In this document: positions 2,764-56,017 of the stretch, one piece after another
Position numbering within the stretch: the stretch's first letter is position 1
How the letters are laid out: the number at the start of each line of letters is the position of its first letter
Origin: Acidimicrobiaceae bacterium
GTDB lineage: Bacteria; Actinomycetota; Acidimicrobiia; Acidimicrobiales; Aldehydirespiratoraceae
Assembly: GCA_026706815.1 (NCBI GenBank)
Contig: JAPOYA010000026.1
Location: 1 to 64,000 of the forward strand
Direction of reading: 5' to 3'
DNA: 64,000 nucleotides
Notes under the pieces: model-generated
Databases searched by the model: none
The model's input: only the letters and a program-made list of their open reading frames with translations
Told to the model about the DNA's origin: nothing
Position numbers and translations under genes: made by a program

Positions 2764-4371
2764 TTGAGCGGCGATAGGAGAGCGGCGATGGGAGGCGAAG
2801 TGAGCGAACAGATTCTCGATGCCACGACGTTCTGGGAGCTGCTCGAACGCCGGACTGCGCTCTCGCCCGACCGGCTGTTCCTGATCGACGACGCCGGTCG
2901 ACAACTCACCTACCGCGAGTTCCGCGACAAGGCTGAGAAAGTTGCGGCAGGTCTGCACGGCTTGGGAATAACCGAGGGCACCCCGGTCACCTGGGAGTTG
3001 CCCACACGGATAGAGACGATCGTCTTGAGTTTCGCTCTGTCGCGGCTCGGCGCTGTCCAGAACCCGATCATTCACATCTACCGCCACCGAGAGGTCGGAT
3101 TCTGCATCGCTCAAACCGGAGCGCGCTTCGTCTTCACCCCGGGGGTCTGGGACGATTTCGACTACCGCGCGATGGCAACCGAAGCAAGCCGAGATCTCCA
3201 CCCCCGTCCGCAGATCCTCGACGGATACGCGAACCTTCCCGAGGGCGACCCACAGGAGTTGCCGCCGGCGCCGACCGATGGCGACGCCGTGCGCTGGATC
3301 TACTACACGTCTGGCACCACATCGGATCCGAAAGGAGTCAAGCACTCCGACAAGACCCTGATGGCGGCGGGAACCGGGCTCGCTCTGGCGCTGGAAACCA
3401 ACGCCGACGACATGGGCACCATCGCCTTCCCGTACGCCCATATCGGCGGCCCCGATTTCATCGTGATGCTGTTGGCCGACGGTTTCGGGGCGATCCTGAT
3501 CGAGAAGTTCACCCCCGCGGGGGCGGTGGCGGCATACGCCGAACACGGCGCGACGATCGTCGGCGGGTCGACTGCCTTCTACCAGATGTTCCTGGCCCAA
3601 GATCAACAACTCGGCGGCGGGTCCATGCCGCGGCTGCGAGCAATGGCTGGCGGCGGTGCACCCAAACCGCCGGAGATCTTCTTTGAAGTCAAAGAGAAGA
3701 TGGGCATACCCATCGCGCACGGCTACGGCATGACCGAATGCCCGATGATCAGCCAGGGTTCGCCCTCAGACACCGACGAACAGCTCGCCCACACCGAGGG
3801 CGCCCCGATCAGAGGATGCGAGGTGACCATCGTGACCGCTGACGGCGCCGTCGCAGCGCCCGGGGTCGAAGGCGAGGTTCGTGTCTTTGGACCAATGTTG
3901 TTCAAGGGTTATACCGACACGGGTCTCAACGCCGAGGCGTTCGACGAGCAGGGCCGGTTCTGCACCGGCGACCTCGGAGTCGAACACGCCGATGGCCATG
4001 TGACGCTGACCGGGCGTGTCAAGGACGTCATCATCCGCAAAGGCGAGAACATCTCGGCCAAGGAAGTCGAGGATGTGCTCTACTCGCTGCCGTCGGTGGA
4101 GAACGCGGCCGTGATCGGACTGCCCGACTCCGAGCGCGGCGAGCGCGTCTGCGCGGTCATCGAGACCGCCGCGGGACACTCCGATCTGACCTTTGCGGAG
4201 ATGTCAGCGGCCTGCAGAGAGGCTGGGCTCATGGTGCAGAAGACTCCCGAGCAACTGGAGATCTACAACGGACCTCTGCCCCGCAATGCCACTATGAAGA
4301 TCCTCAAATACGAGCTTCGCGATCAATACAAAGACAAACAATGGCAATCCAAGGACAAACAATGGCCCTGA
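2764..4371 (+). CDS. AMP-dependent acyl-CoA synthetase/ligase
   Basis: YYTSGTTSDPKGVKHS, YGMTECPMISQG, GRVKDVIIRKGENISAKEVE motifs. Confidence 0.93.
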   Translation: MSGDRRAAMGGEVSEQILDATTFWELLERRTALSPDRLFLIDDAGRQLTYREFRDKAEKVAAGLHGLGITEGTPVTWELPTRIETIVLSFALSRLGAVQNPIIHIYRHREVGFCIAQTGARFVFTPGVWDDFDYRAMATEASRDLHPRPQILDGYANLPEGDPQELPPAPTDGDAVRWIYYTSGTTSDPKGVKHSDKTLMAAGTGLALALETNADDMGTIAFPYAHIGGPDFIVMLLADGFGAILIEKFTPAGAVAAYAEHGATIVGGSTAFYQMFLAQDQQLGGGSMPRLRAMAGGGAPKPPEIFFEVKEKMGIPIAHGYGMTECPMISQGSPSDTDEQLAHTEGAPIRGCEVTIVTADGAVAAPGVEGEVRVFGPMLFKGYTDTGLNAEAFDEQGRFCTGDLGVEHADGHVTLTGRVKDVIIRKGENISAKEVEDVLYSLPSVENAAVIGLPDSERGERVCAVIETAAGHSDLTFAEMSAACREAGLMVQKTPEQLEIYNGPLPRNATMKILKYELRDQYKDKQWQSKDKQWP

Positions 4372-4745
4372 CCATCTACCACAACCAGCATTGAAACTCT
4401 TCAAGCAACGCCGTGGCGGTCGCCACGGAGATGGGAGTCGACTTCACCGAGGTCCGCTACATGAAGGACTTCCCCGACGAACAGACCCTGCGGAATCTGA
4501 TTGCCAAGCTTGAGGAACCAGTCGAGAACCTGGTGCGCAAGGACGCCCAGTTCGCCAAACTCGGCCTCAACGAAGACGACTACGTCGGCAACGTGGACGC
4601 TGTGGTGGAGGTGCTCGACAAGTACCACCGACTGCTTCAGCGACCGATCCTCGTCGGACCCGACAAAGCCATAATCGGGCGCCCCTTCGACGGCGTGATG
4701 GCCAAGACTCGAGTGGCTGAGATGCTCAGTTCAAACGCGGACTGA
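4362..4745 (+). CDS. ArsC/Spx-like thiol reductase, predicted selenoprotein (in-frame TGA at 4392-4394 = Sec)
   Basis: ATG GCC CTG ACC ATC TAC CAC AAC CAG CAT TGA AAC... = MALTIYHNQH(U)NSSSNAVAVATEMGVDFTEVRYMKDFPDEQTLRNLIAKLEEPV...ILVGPDKAIIGRPFD; TGA sits where ArsC has catalytic Cys (IYHNPxCS); hairpin 4411-4428 downstream. Confidence 0.85.
4411..4428 (+). promoter_or_regulatory. Candidate bSECIS hairpin of the ArsC-like gene
   Basis: CCGTGGCG-GT-CGCCACGG, about 16 nt after the TGA, G in apical loop. Confidence 0.7.
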
Positions 4746-37985: not shown

Positions 37986-39344
37986 CTACGGCATTGCCAG
38001 TGCTGATTCGATGCGCTCCCGCAGGGCTGCGACATGGCGGTCGGTGGTCCAGGTCGAACCGATCGACACTCTGATGAATGCCCGCCCGTTGACAGACGAG
38101 CCCAGCACGTAGACACTCGGGTCGGAGTTGAGCGAGTCGAGCAGCCTCTGGGTTGCCTCATCGCCGTCGACATGGGCGAAACAGACCAAGGCGAACGGGG
38201 TTGGAGCGATCAGGGTCAACTCTTGTTGTCGCTGAATCCACTCGGCCAGCCCGCGAGCCTGTCTCACGTTGGCGCGGATTCGCTCGCGCAGGCCCTCGAC
38301 TCCGAAACTGCGGAGCACCCACCACAGTTTGAGGGCCCGAAAGCGCCTTCCGAGGGGCACGTGCCAATCTCGATAGTCGATCACCTCGCCGGCATCGGAA
38401 GCGGCATTGGCCAGATATGGGGGTGTGATTGCGAGGGTGTCGATCAACGGCTTGCGGTCAGCCACCCAGAAAACCGAGCAGTCGAAGTTCGTTGCCAGCC
38501 ATTTATGTGGATTGAACGTGTAGCTGTCGGCCAGTTCGAGTCCGTCCTGATGGTGGCGGAACTCTTCGCAGATCATTGCGGCGCCGGCGTAGGCGGCATC
38601 GACATGGAACCACAGATTGTGCTGGGCGGCTATCTCCCCGATGGCCCGAATCGGGTCGACTGCGGTGGTTGCCGTGGTGCCGACCGAGGCTCCCACGAAT
38701 GCAGGCGCCGACCCTGCGGCGAGGTCGTCGGTGATTGCTTGGGCCAGTGCTTCGGGGCGCAGGGCGAAGCAATCGTCGACGTCAATGAGACGCACCCGGC
38801 CGACGCCCGCCACCCGTGCGCCCTTCTCTATTGAAGAGTGAGCCTGAGCCGACGTGTAAGCGACCATCTGCTCGGCCGCCGCTCCCGTTCGGCTGCGGCA
38901 GACCTCGCGGGCCACGACCAGGGCGGTGTGGGTCGAGTCCGAAGCGCTCATCTGGATGACGCCTCCACCCGGGCCGGTCGTCTTCCAATCTTGCGGCGCG
39001 CCGGTCAGGTCGACGAGCCAGTCCAGAACGTGGGATTCGATCTCGGTGGTGGCGGGAGCGGTGACCCACATCATCCCTTGCGGCCCCAATGCGGCGGACG
39101 CCATCTCCCCAAGAATCGACGGCGGTGACGACTGGGCCGGGAAGTAAGTGAACCATCCGGGATGCTGCCATTGGGCCAGTCCCGGCACAACCACTTCGTC
39201 GAGATCGCGCAGCAATGCCTCGAACGGCTCGGCTGACTCGGGAGCCGAGCCTGGGAGCATGGCCCTCACCTCGCCTGGTGAGACCTGGGCCTGCACTGGA
39301 CGCTCCTCGATACTTGCGAGGTAGTCGGTGATCCAGTCGACCAA
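37986..39344 (-). CDS. PLP-dependent group II (aromatic-amino-acid-type) decarboxylase
   Basis: HPGWFTYFPAQSSPPSILGEMASAAL, WFHVDAAYAGAAMICEEFRH, SYTFNPHKWLATNFDCSVFW; true start may lie slightly upstream. Confidence 0.92.
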   Translation of the reverse strand: MVDWITDYLASIEERPVQAQVSPGEVRAMLPGSAPESAEPFEALLRDLDEVVVPGLAQWQHPGWFTYFPAQSSPPSILGEMASAALGPQGMMWVTAPATTEIESHVLDWLVDLTGAPQDWKTTGPGGGVIQMSASDSTHTALVVAREVCRSRTGAAAEQMVAYTSAQAHSSIEKGARVAGVGRVRLIDVDDCFALRPEALAQAITDDLAAGSAPAFVGASVGTTATTAVDPIRAIGEIAAQHNLWFHVDAAYAGAAMICEEFRHHQDGLELADSYTFNPHKWLATNFDCSVFWVADRKPLIDTLAITPPYLANAASDAGEVIDYRDWHVPLGRRFRALKLWWVLRSFGVEGLRERIRANVRQARGLAEWIQRQQELTLIAPTPFALVCFAHVDGDEATQRLLDSLNSDPSVYVLGSSVNGRAFIRVSIGSTWTTDRHVAALRERIESALAMP

Positions 39345-39396
39345 CGCGTGCCCGTTGGCGCGGAACTCCTCGAGGTCGAGCGGGTCTGGAATCGTC

Positions 39397-39663
39397 TCAG
39401 CCCTGACCGTAGCGGCTGACGTCGCCTACTTTTTGCTCGAAGAGGCCGAGAACCTCTCCGGGTTCGTCGTGGCGCCCGGTTTGGTCCTTGGAGTAGATGA
39501 GATCGCCGTCCACCGTGACGTCGAAAATTCCTTGGGATCCAGTGGTCAGGGTCAGCCGTTCGATGACGTGCTGATAGTTCGAGAGAAGATCCTTTGCTGC
39601 GCTCACGGCGTAGCTCGAATAGTCTCAAGGAACGCAATATTTGATGTCAACGATATGTCCCAT
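39397..39663 (-). CDS. SelW/Rdx-family redox protein, predicted selenoprotein (in-frame TGA at 39627-39625 = Sec)
   Basis: ATG at 39663: MGHIVDIKYCVP(U)DYSSYAVSAAKDLLSNYQHVIERLTLTTGSQGIFDVTVDGDLIYSKDQTGRHDEPGEVLGLFEQKVGDVSRYGQG*; CxxU at family redox site; imperfect 7-bp hairpin after TGA. Confidence 0.83.
39596..39614 (-). promoter_or_regulatory. Candidate bSECIS hairpin of SelW-like gene
   Basis: GCTACGC-CGTGA-GCGCAGC (one mismatch), loop begins 18 nt after TGA, G at loop position 2. Confidence 0.6.
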
Positions 39664-39798
39664 GGCATGGAGGTTATCGGACTGTGTTGTGGTCGGGCGT
39701 AGCCGGAGCCGCGGTGGCGCGGAGTGGCGGATGTGTCTGTATCGGCCGTAGGCTCGCAGTTGCACTTCTCGTGCGAGTCTCGAAATGGAGAAGATTCA

Positions 39799-54717: not shown

Positions 54718-55647
54718 TCACCTTGGGTTTTGCACAGGCTGTTTGTTGTGGTTTTTTGTGGTGGTTTGGTTGGTTCTGTCCGCAGTGTAGGCGGTTTCGA
54801 ACTCGTCGGGTGGGAGGTCGTCGAGGTAGCTGTGGATGCGCTGGGTGTTCCACCAGTGCACCCAGCCGAGGGTGGCGAGCTCGACGTCGTCGATTGTGCG
54901 CCACGGTCTGTGGTCGGGGCCGCGGATCAGTTCGGTCTTGAACAGCGCGTTGACCGCTTCGGCGAGGGCGTTGTCATATGAGTCCCCAGCCGATCCGGTC
55001 GACGGCACAGCGCCGATCTCGTCGAGGCGCTCGCCGTAGCGGATGCTGGTGAACTGGCTGCCGGCATCGGTGTGGGCGACGAGCCTTTCGAGGCGGGCGC
55101 CTCGGTTCCAGCGGGCCATCTCCAAAGCGTCGAGGGCCATCTGGGTGCGCATGTTCGACGCGACCCTCCAGCCGACGATGCGGCGGCTGTAAGCGTCGAT
55201 GACGAAGCACACATAGGCGACGCCGGACCAGGTGGCGACATGGGTCAGGTCGGCGACCCACAACCGGTTCGGGGGGTCGGCGGTGAAGTCCCGCTCCACT
55301 AGGTCGGCGGGCCGTGCTGTGTTGGGATCGGGTCGGGTGGTGCGCACACTCTTCGTCCGTTTCACGCCGCCGATCCCGAGTTGGCGCATGAGGCGGGCTA
55401 CTTGGTCGCGTCCGATGTCGTGGCCGGCGCGTCGAGCCGCGATCCACAGCTTGCGCGCTCCATAGACCGAGTAGTTGGCCTGCCACAGCGCCAACAAGAC
55501 CGGCATCATCTGCGCGTCCCGCTTTGACCGAGCCGACGGCGGGCGGCGCTTGGCCGACCAGTACGTGGAGGGGGCCACCTGCAAAGCAACACAGACGGGC
55601 TCGACCCCGAACTCTTCACGGTTGCCGTCGATGAACCGCACGATCAT
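54718..55647 (-). CDS. IS3-family OrfB DDE transposase
   Basis: DFTADPPNRLWVADLTHVATWSGVAYVCFVIDAYSRRIVGW...HTDAGSQFTS...NALAEAVNALFKTELI. Confidence 0.93.
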   Translation of the reverse strand: MIVRFIDGNREEFGVEPVCVALQVAPSTYWSAKRRPPSARSKRDAQMMPVLLALWQANYSVYGARKLWIAARRAGHDIGRDQVARLMRQLGIGGVKRTKSVRTTRPDPNTARPADLVERDFTADPPNRLWVADLTHVATWSGVAYVCFVIDAYSRRIVGWRVASNMRTQMALDALEMARWNRGARLERLVAHTDAGSQFTSIRYGERLDEIGAVPSTGSAGDSYDNALAEAVNALFKTELIRGPDHRPWRTIDDVELATLGWVHWWNTQRIHSYLDDLPPDEFETAYTADRTNQTTTKNHNKQPVQNPR

Positions 55648-56017
55648 CGCTGTCGGCGGTCGAGCTCCGCCCCGAAAAAACCGCTGCACGCTGAAGAATC
55701 TCGTTCGCCCGGCGCAGCTCACGGTTCTCCTGACGCAGCCGCTTGATCCCCGCGCTCTCCGCTGAGCCCACCCCCGCACGGGCACCCGCGTCGATCTCGG
55801 CCTGAGCCACCCAACGGCGCAACGACTCCTCCCCGCAACCGAGCTGACGGGCCACCCGAGCCACCGTGCCCACAGAACTGCCCAACTCCTCACGCAACGC
55901 CAACACCAACCGCACCGCATGCTGTTTCTGCTCAGCCCAATACCTCCTCGAAGTCGGCACCGGCCCCGTTCCTGAACCCATAGAACGCATCATCGCTCCA
56001 ATCCTTGGAGCCTGCAC
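55616..56017 (-). CDS. IS3-family OrfA (HTH)
   Basis: SRRYWAEQKQHAVRLVLALREELGSSVGTVARVARQLGCGEESLRRWVAQAEID...IKRLRQENRELRRANEIL. Confidence 0.9.
   Translation of the reverse strand: MQAPRIGAMMRSMGSGTGPVPTSRRYWAEQKQHAVRLVLALREELGSSVGTVARVARQLGCGEESLRRWVAQAEIDAGARAGVGSAESAGIKRLRQENRELRRANEILQRAAVFSGRSSTADSDDRAVHRRQP

Follow-up and report, generated by a model that had tools for sequence, protein, structure and literature searches.

Comparative sequence evidence for a SelW/Rdx-family selenoprotein gene in an Acidimicrobiia bacterium

The rdx gene of an Acidimicrobiia bacterium (Actinomycetota), located on the minus strand of the window (i.e., the whole 64,000-nucleotide stretch of DNA that was analysed), is, as judged from sequence, almost certainly a genuine SelW/Rdx-family selenoprotein gene in which UGA codon 13 would specify selenocysteine (Sec). 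The features on which this assignment draws, namely the reading frame and its conservation, the Sec machinery of the source genome, covariation in a SECIS hairpin and the predicted fold of the product, were observed directly. The gene and the two key codons of its CxxU motif are located as follows:

39397 to 39663, minus strand: rdx/selW-like putative selenoprotein gene, 88 amino acids, with Sec as residue 13 and stop codon TGA at 39399-39397 (from translation, PF10262/TIGR02174 matches, the conserved ATG and the fold)
39625 to 39627, minus strand: predicted Sec codon TGA (CVPU); TGA at this codon in homologues from Sec users, TGC or TGT in homologues with no internal stop
39634 to 39636, minus strand: TGC codon of Cys10, the first residue of CxxU, invariant across two homologue alignments

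Translation of minus-strand positions 39663-39397 yields a single frame, 88 codons long before its terminal TGA and interrupted by one internal TGA at 39627-39625; the product reads MGHIVDIKYCVP-U-DYSSYAVSAAKDLLSNYQHVIERLTLTTGSQGIFDVTVDGDLIYSKDQTGRHDEPGEVLGLFEQKVGDVSRYGQG-stop. These coordinates agree with an initial annotation of the window, which had extended a called ORF (39606-39397) through this TGA to the ATG at 39663 and had placed a CxxU motif at the SelW/Rdx redox site. A profile search matched Pfam Rdx (PF10262) over residues 5-72 with 60.8 bits (cut-off 22.6); as the match starts 5' of the TGA, the domain spans the TGA codon. The protein also scored above the cut-off for TIGR02174, the NCBIfam SelT/SelW/SelH subfamily (47.1 versus 34.2 bits), while its score against the SelTWH_Campy equivalog NF041051 (66.6 bits) stayed below the curated threshold of 88 bits, which keeps the protein out of this narrower group. 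The CVPU motif places UGA at the second-Cys position of CxxU, the feature by which a SelW-like selenoprotein (PF10262) is recognized. AlphaFold2, supplied with a 34-sequence alignment and with Sec modelled as Cys, predicted a thioredoxin-like SelW fold with a pLDDT of 94.5; the top PDB matches of this model in Foldseek were SAV_2001 (3dex), Atu0228 (2fa8) and other SelW-family proteins, followed at lower rank by MIEN1, mouse SelW and thioredoxins. In the model, Cys10 and Sec13 lie in the loop between the first strand (residues 3-9) and the first helix (residues 16-33), the usual redox site, and motif and fold together predict a thiol-redox protein. An interaction with glutathione is noted for the SelW family in an earlier survey (PMC1088965).

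Conservation of the TGA codon across relatives bears directly on whether it could have arisen in a Cys-type rdx gene by recent nonsense mutation or through an error of sequencing or assembly, an explanation that might be entertained given that the window represents just one of the assembly's 65 contigs and that Cys-type CxxC relatives exist. Rdx was found in 31 of the 51 genomes of the taxonomic family, and each of the 32 matches carried exactly one internal TGA; the start ATG and YCVPU were conserved in 30 loci of relatives. A wider scan of GTDB genome contigs found TGA at the Sec codon in all of the best 80 loci (80/80), nearly all of them from metagenome-assembled genomes (MAGs) labelled Acidimicrobiia or other Actinomycetota, and one labelled Acidobacteria. 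Among the matches listed, the nearest relatives were the Acidimicrobiaceae MAGs RHO3_bin_4 and SB0670_bin_1, both of which we take, from their isolate names, to be sponge-derived; the source organism is a marine, probably sponge-dwelling actinobacterium. Altogether, every one of the 110 examined loci had TGA at the Sec codon; 87 of them were distinct in sequence around this codon, and the protein was conserved on both sides of it, which refutes an error or nonsense mutation and leaves that explanation with a negligible probability.

Homologues with no internal stop provide the complementary evidence for Sec at codon 13. In a sample of the phylum Actinomycetota, SelA was detected in 37 of 41 genomes with a TGA-containing Rdx gene versus 5 of 15 genomes with a no-stop Rdx gene (Fisher p 5e-5); most no-stop homologues in this sample thus came from genomes without detected SelA. 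In the remaining four of the 41 TGA-Rdx genomes, no SelA was found and no SelB scored over the cut-off; two of these four are clearly incomplete (83% and 68%). The no-stop actinobacterial Rdx genes that were read carry TGC or TGT at the Sec codon (CTQC, CASC, CVPC, etc.), and solved Rdx-family structures have CxxC at the motif equivalent to Cys10/Sec13. Sec and Cys thus swap at one position, largely tracking the machinery, and this pattern is the classic selenoprotein signature. The initial annotation had made its reading depend on CxxC or CxxU homologues that align 5' of the called GTG, and such homologues were found in all three forms, with TGA in Sec users, TGC or TGT in no-stop genes and CxxC in structures. 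As a separate observation, two loci (L134 and L136, from genomes G208 and G186) carry Rdx with TGT (CASC) despite the presence of SelA, in a taxonomic family (f15) that also holds genera with TGA; a recent Sec-to-Cys change is the probable origin of these two genes.

The source genome (3.04 Mb in 65 contigs, 95% complete) encodes tRNA-Sec with anticodon TCA (64.7 bits), SelA (328 bits), SelB (278 bits, with a further match at the C-terminus), which directly follows SelA on contig C32, and SelD (361 bits), itself a selenoprotein with an in-frame TGA within GAGUGCK. With tRNA-Sec, SelA, SelB and SelD, the set that defines the bacterial Sec-decoding trait, present in one genome, the organism owns the core genes for Sec decoding; the initial annotation had deduced Sec decoding from the window alone and had named an absence of this machinery as the finding that would speak against it. 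Elsewhere in the taxonomic family, SelA was found in 50 of 51 genomes. One genus-level group of this family (g2, 16 genomes) has SelA in 16/16 genomes and an Rdx match in 0/16; here the Rdx gene has been lost or was never acquired, and Sec decoding is retained. With the case for Sec resting on sequence, it could be asked whether UGA is read in another way, through reassignment to Trp or suppression by a near-cognate tRNA. Yet TGA serves as a normal stop codon in this organism, including as the stop codon of rdx itself, relatives have Cys rather than Trp at the position in question, and a full Sec system is present together with a covarying hairpin, so that we regard such decoding as very improbable and Sec as the predicted residue.

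A second case in the window of a redox Cys replaced by TGA, also proposed in the initial annotation, likewise held up. An ArsC-like ORF at 4362-4745 on the plus strand, with TGA at 4392-4394 (MALTIYHNQH-U-NSS), matches PF03960 with 38.6 bits and is followed, 23 nt after the TGA, by a 7-bp hairpin with loop GGUC; in the taxonomic family, 48 of the 51 genomes have homologues that likewise contain an internal TGA. ArsC selenoproteins of the UxxS type are known from the Global Ocean Sampling (GOS) and Sargasso Sea data. The sole match in an Rfam scan of the window at gathering thresholds was an ALIL pseudoknot at 55570-55685 on the minus strand (73.2 bits, gathering threshold 50), which is unrelated to rdx; ALIL pseudoknots are frameshift-associated elements usually found in IS3-family insertion sequences.

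Downstream of the rdx TGA lies a candidate bacterial SECIS (bSECIS) element:

39596 to 39614, minus strand: predicted bSECIS hairpin, 17 nt from UGA to loop (from published criteria, pair counts, loop GTG in 87/87 and minimum free energy, MFE)

Its 5' arm (39614-39608, GCTACGC) and 3' arm (39602-39596, GCGCAGC) form six pairs plus one A.C mismatch around the loop CGTGA (39607-39603), beginning 11 nt after the TGA, in every detail as initially annotated (a 7-bp hairpin with one mismatch). A bSECIS prediction, which the initial annotation had named as a check, was made with rules given in PMC13188914 (loop of 3-9 nt, stem of 4-16 bp, G in the first two loop positions, spacing of 16-37 nt, MFE <= -7.5 kcal/mol); the rdx hairpin passes these rules with a 5-nt loop (CGUGA) that has G at position 2, a spacing of 17 nt and an MFE of -8.0 kcal/mol. 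In the single sequence this MFE of -8.0 kcal/mol is no more stable than that of shuffles (z 0.33; 0.12 and 0.69 for shorter pieces), so that the hairpin alone is no evidence for a SECIS; it is the comparative data that make it evidence.

Among the 87 distinct sequences, columns 56-62 were C-G in every case (87/87); columns 55-63 were G-C in 80, A-U in 5 and G-U in 2; columns 54-64 were C-G in 79, U-A in 4, U-G in 2 and G.G in 2; and columns 53-65 were G-C in 69, A-U in 5 and an A.C mismatch in 13. Several compensations combine a synonymous with a non-synonymous change (e.g., an Ala-to-Thr change, GCC to ACC, matched by AGC to AGT in a Ser codon), and mixed changes of this kind are not explained by coding constraint. 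The loop codon (Val+7) is GTG in 87/87 sequences, whereas all four Val codons occur at the Val that lies two codons ahead of the TGA. In a 29-sequence alignment, 88.7% of cells were paired in the structure versus at most 60.6% when the structure was slid along the alignment. Tree-based sign tests on single pairs had 2-7 independent contrasts each, too few for significance alone; the comparison across the 87 sequences, a purely sequence-level one, is nevertheless decisive for identification of the hairpin as a SECIS element.

The same hairpin contains the codon at which table-11 gene calling starts the rdx ORF:

39604 to 39606, minus strand: GTG start of the short called ORF, predicted to belong to the SECIS loop and not to be the real start

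A gene that truly begins at GTG 39606-39604, with incidental homology upstream and a TGA that is a true stop or non-coding, is what such standard ORF calling produces. This start would, however, leave unaccounted for the upstream I-x-I-x-Y-C-V-P, which the family profile recognizes from position 2 onwards, as well as the conservation of ATG and CVP, and a protein lacking residues 1-19 would have neither the first strand nor the redox loop of the predicted fold; we consider it exceedingly improbable. All available comparisons indicate that GTG 39606 is part of the SECIS loop and that the conserved ATG 39663 is the true start. The designation of rdx as a "hidden" selenoprotein gene is accurate insofar as ORF calling truncates the gene, but knowledge of the SelW-like family goes back two decades.

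Upstream of the ATG, comparison among relatives pointed to a promoter element:

39671 to 39676, minus strand: TAACCT, probable -10 element, 8-13 nt 5' of the ATG (TANNNT position conserved in relatives)

TANNNT starts 10-14 nt before the start codon, mostly at -13 or -12, in 70 of 87 distinct upstream regions (shuffled mean 2.1), and a Shine-Dalgarno-like motif occurs in just 3 of the 87. A sigma-70 scan, which requires a -35 box, returned no promoter; TANNNT emerged by comparison. The placement of TANNNT and the scarcity of Shine-Dalgarno motifs form the pattern expected of a leaderless mRNA and support ATG 39663 as the start; transcription probably begins at or next to this ATG. Among the papers returned by one literature search, none appeared, by title and abstract, to deal with leaderless selenoprotein mRNAs in bacteria.

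Directly 3' of rdx is a co-oriented gene:

37986 to 39392, minus strand: PLP-dependent decarboxylase (PF00282, 343.5 bits), probable start ATT 39392-39390

In relatives, the decarboxylase usually starts at a GTG or ATG that overlaps the stop codon of rdx. In the window, the stretch from the in-frame TAG upstream to an internal TTG of the decarboxylase contains no ATG, GTG or TTG. The four genomes of the window's genus with the decarboxylase after rdx lack such a codon near the expected start and share a conserved ATT where homologues of other genera start, which suggests that the decarboxylase of this genus begins at a non-canonical ATT and is coupled to termination of rdx. Because the decarboxylase ORF lacks a standard start, entry from rdx by a +1 frameshift was also considered but rejected, as the pre-stop codon in the genus is GGC, GGG or GGT, which would mostly fail to re-pair after slippage, and ATT occupies the start-codon position of homologues. 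We give about even chances to the joint proposal that most Acidimicrobiia SelW-like mRNAs are leaderless, with Sec 36 nt from the 5' end and the SECIS in the first ~70 nt, and that the decarboxylase of the genus starts at ATT after the rdx stop. The abutting of the decarboxylase start and the rdx stop in many relatives also raises the possibility that the in-frame TGA, instead of simply specifying Sec, serves as a switch that responds to selenium, where termination at codon 13 under low selenium could uncouple the decarboxylase; however, the decarboxylase was found next to rdx in just 32 of the 110 loci and nothing else suggests a switch, so that we consider this role unlikely.

In the mechanism that we infer for Sec insertion, and for the redox activity, substrates and physiological role of the product, a probably leaderless mRNA would be translated from ATG 39663, and SelB, docked on the hairpin 17 nt past the UGA, would bring Sec-tRNA-Sec, made by SelA with SelD-derived selenophosphate, to codon 13. 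The product would be an 88-residue thioredoxin-like protein whose strand 1 and helix 1 are joined by a Cys10-x-x-Sec13 loop, in which Cys10 and Sec13 may form a selenenylsulfide and thus a thiol-disulfide or glutathione-linked redox centre.

SelW-like proteins (PF10262, CxxU) are listed among prokaryotic selenoprotein families in Table 1 of PMC13188914; they were the most abundant selenoprotein family in the Sargasso Sea (48 genes; PMC1088965) and the top family in GOS (427 sequences; PMC2398784), and selenoproteins of Actinobacteria were reported in 2006 (12 families; PMC1794560). With these prokaryotic SelW-like selenoproteins rdx shares domain, motif, size, Sec position and bSECIS class, but unlike the metagenomic sequences it is assigned here to a genome and a clade. 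The excerpted texts of PMC13188914, PMC1088965 and PMC2398784 do not name an Acidimicrobiia SelW, although some of the metagenomic sequences may derive from Acidimicrobiia. SAV_2001 (3dex), a Cys-type Rdx of Actinomycetota, has the same fold (Foldseek E 5.6e-8, TM 0.81) and an equal position of the redox pair; Cys-type Actinomycetota proteins differ in having CxxC rather than CxxU and in occurring mostly in genomes without detected SelA. Mouse SelW (2npb) and MIEN1 (2ljk) share the thioredoxin-like fold but are distant (18-24% identity), and eukaryotic Sec insertion, as in mouse SelW, uses a 3'-UTR SECIS, unlike that of bacterial rdx. The gene is hence a well-supported addition to a catalogued family, of low novelty; less ordinary are two side points, namely that a selenoprotein gene is apparently transcribed without a leader and that the decarboxylase of this genus seems to start at ATT.

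For the family, the SelA counts (50 of 51 genomes) indicate near-universal Sec decoding in an uncultured group of Acidimicrobiia in which standard ORF calling shortens the SelW-like gene. Comparison of the 87 distinct genes shows a bacterial SECIS element with unusual clarity, and their apparent leaderless transcription would provide a simple test of Sec insertion on mRNAs without a 5' leader.
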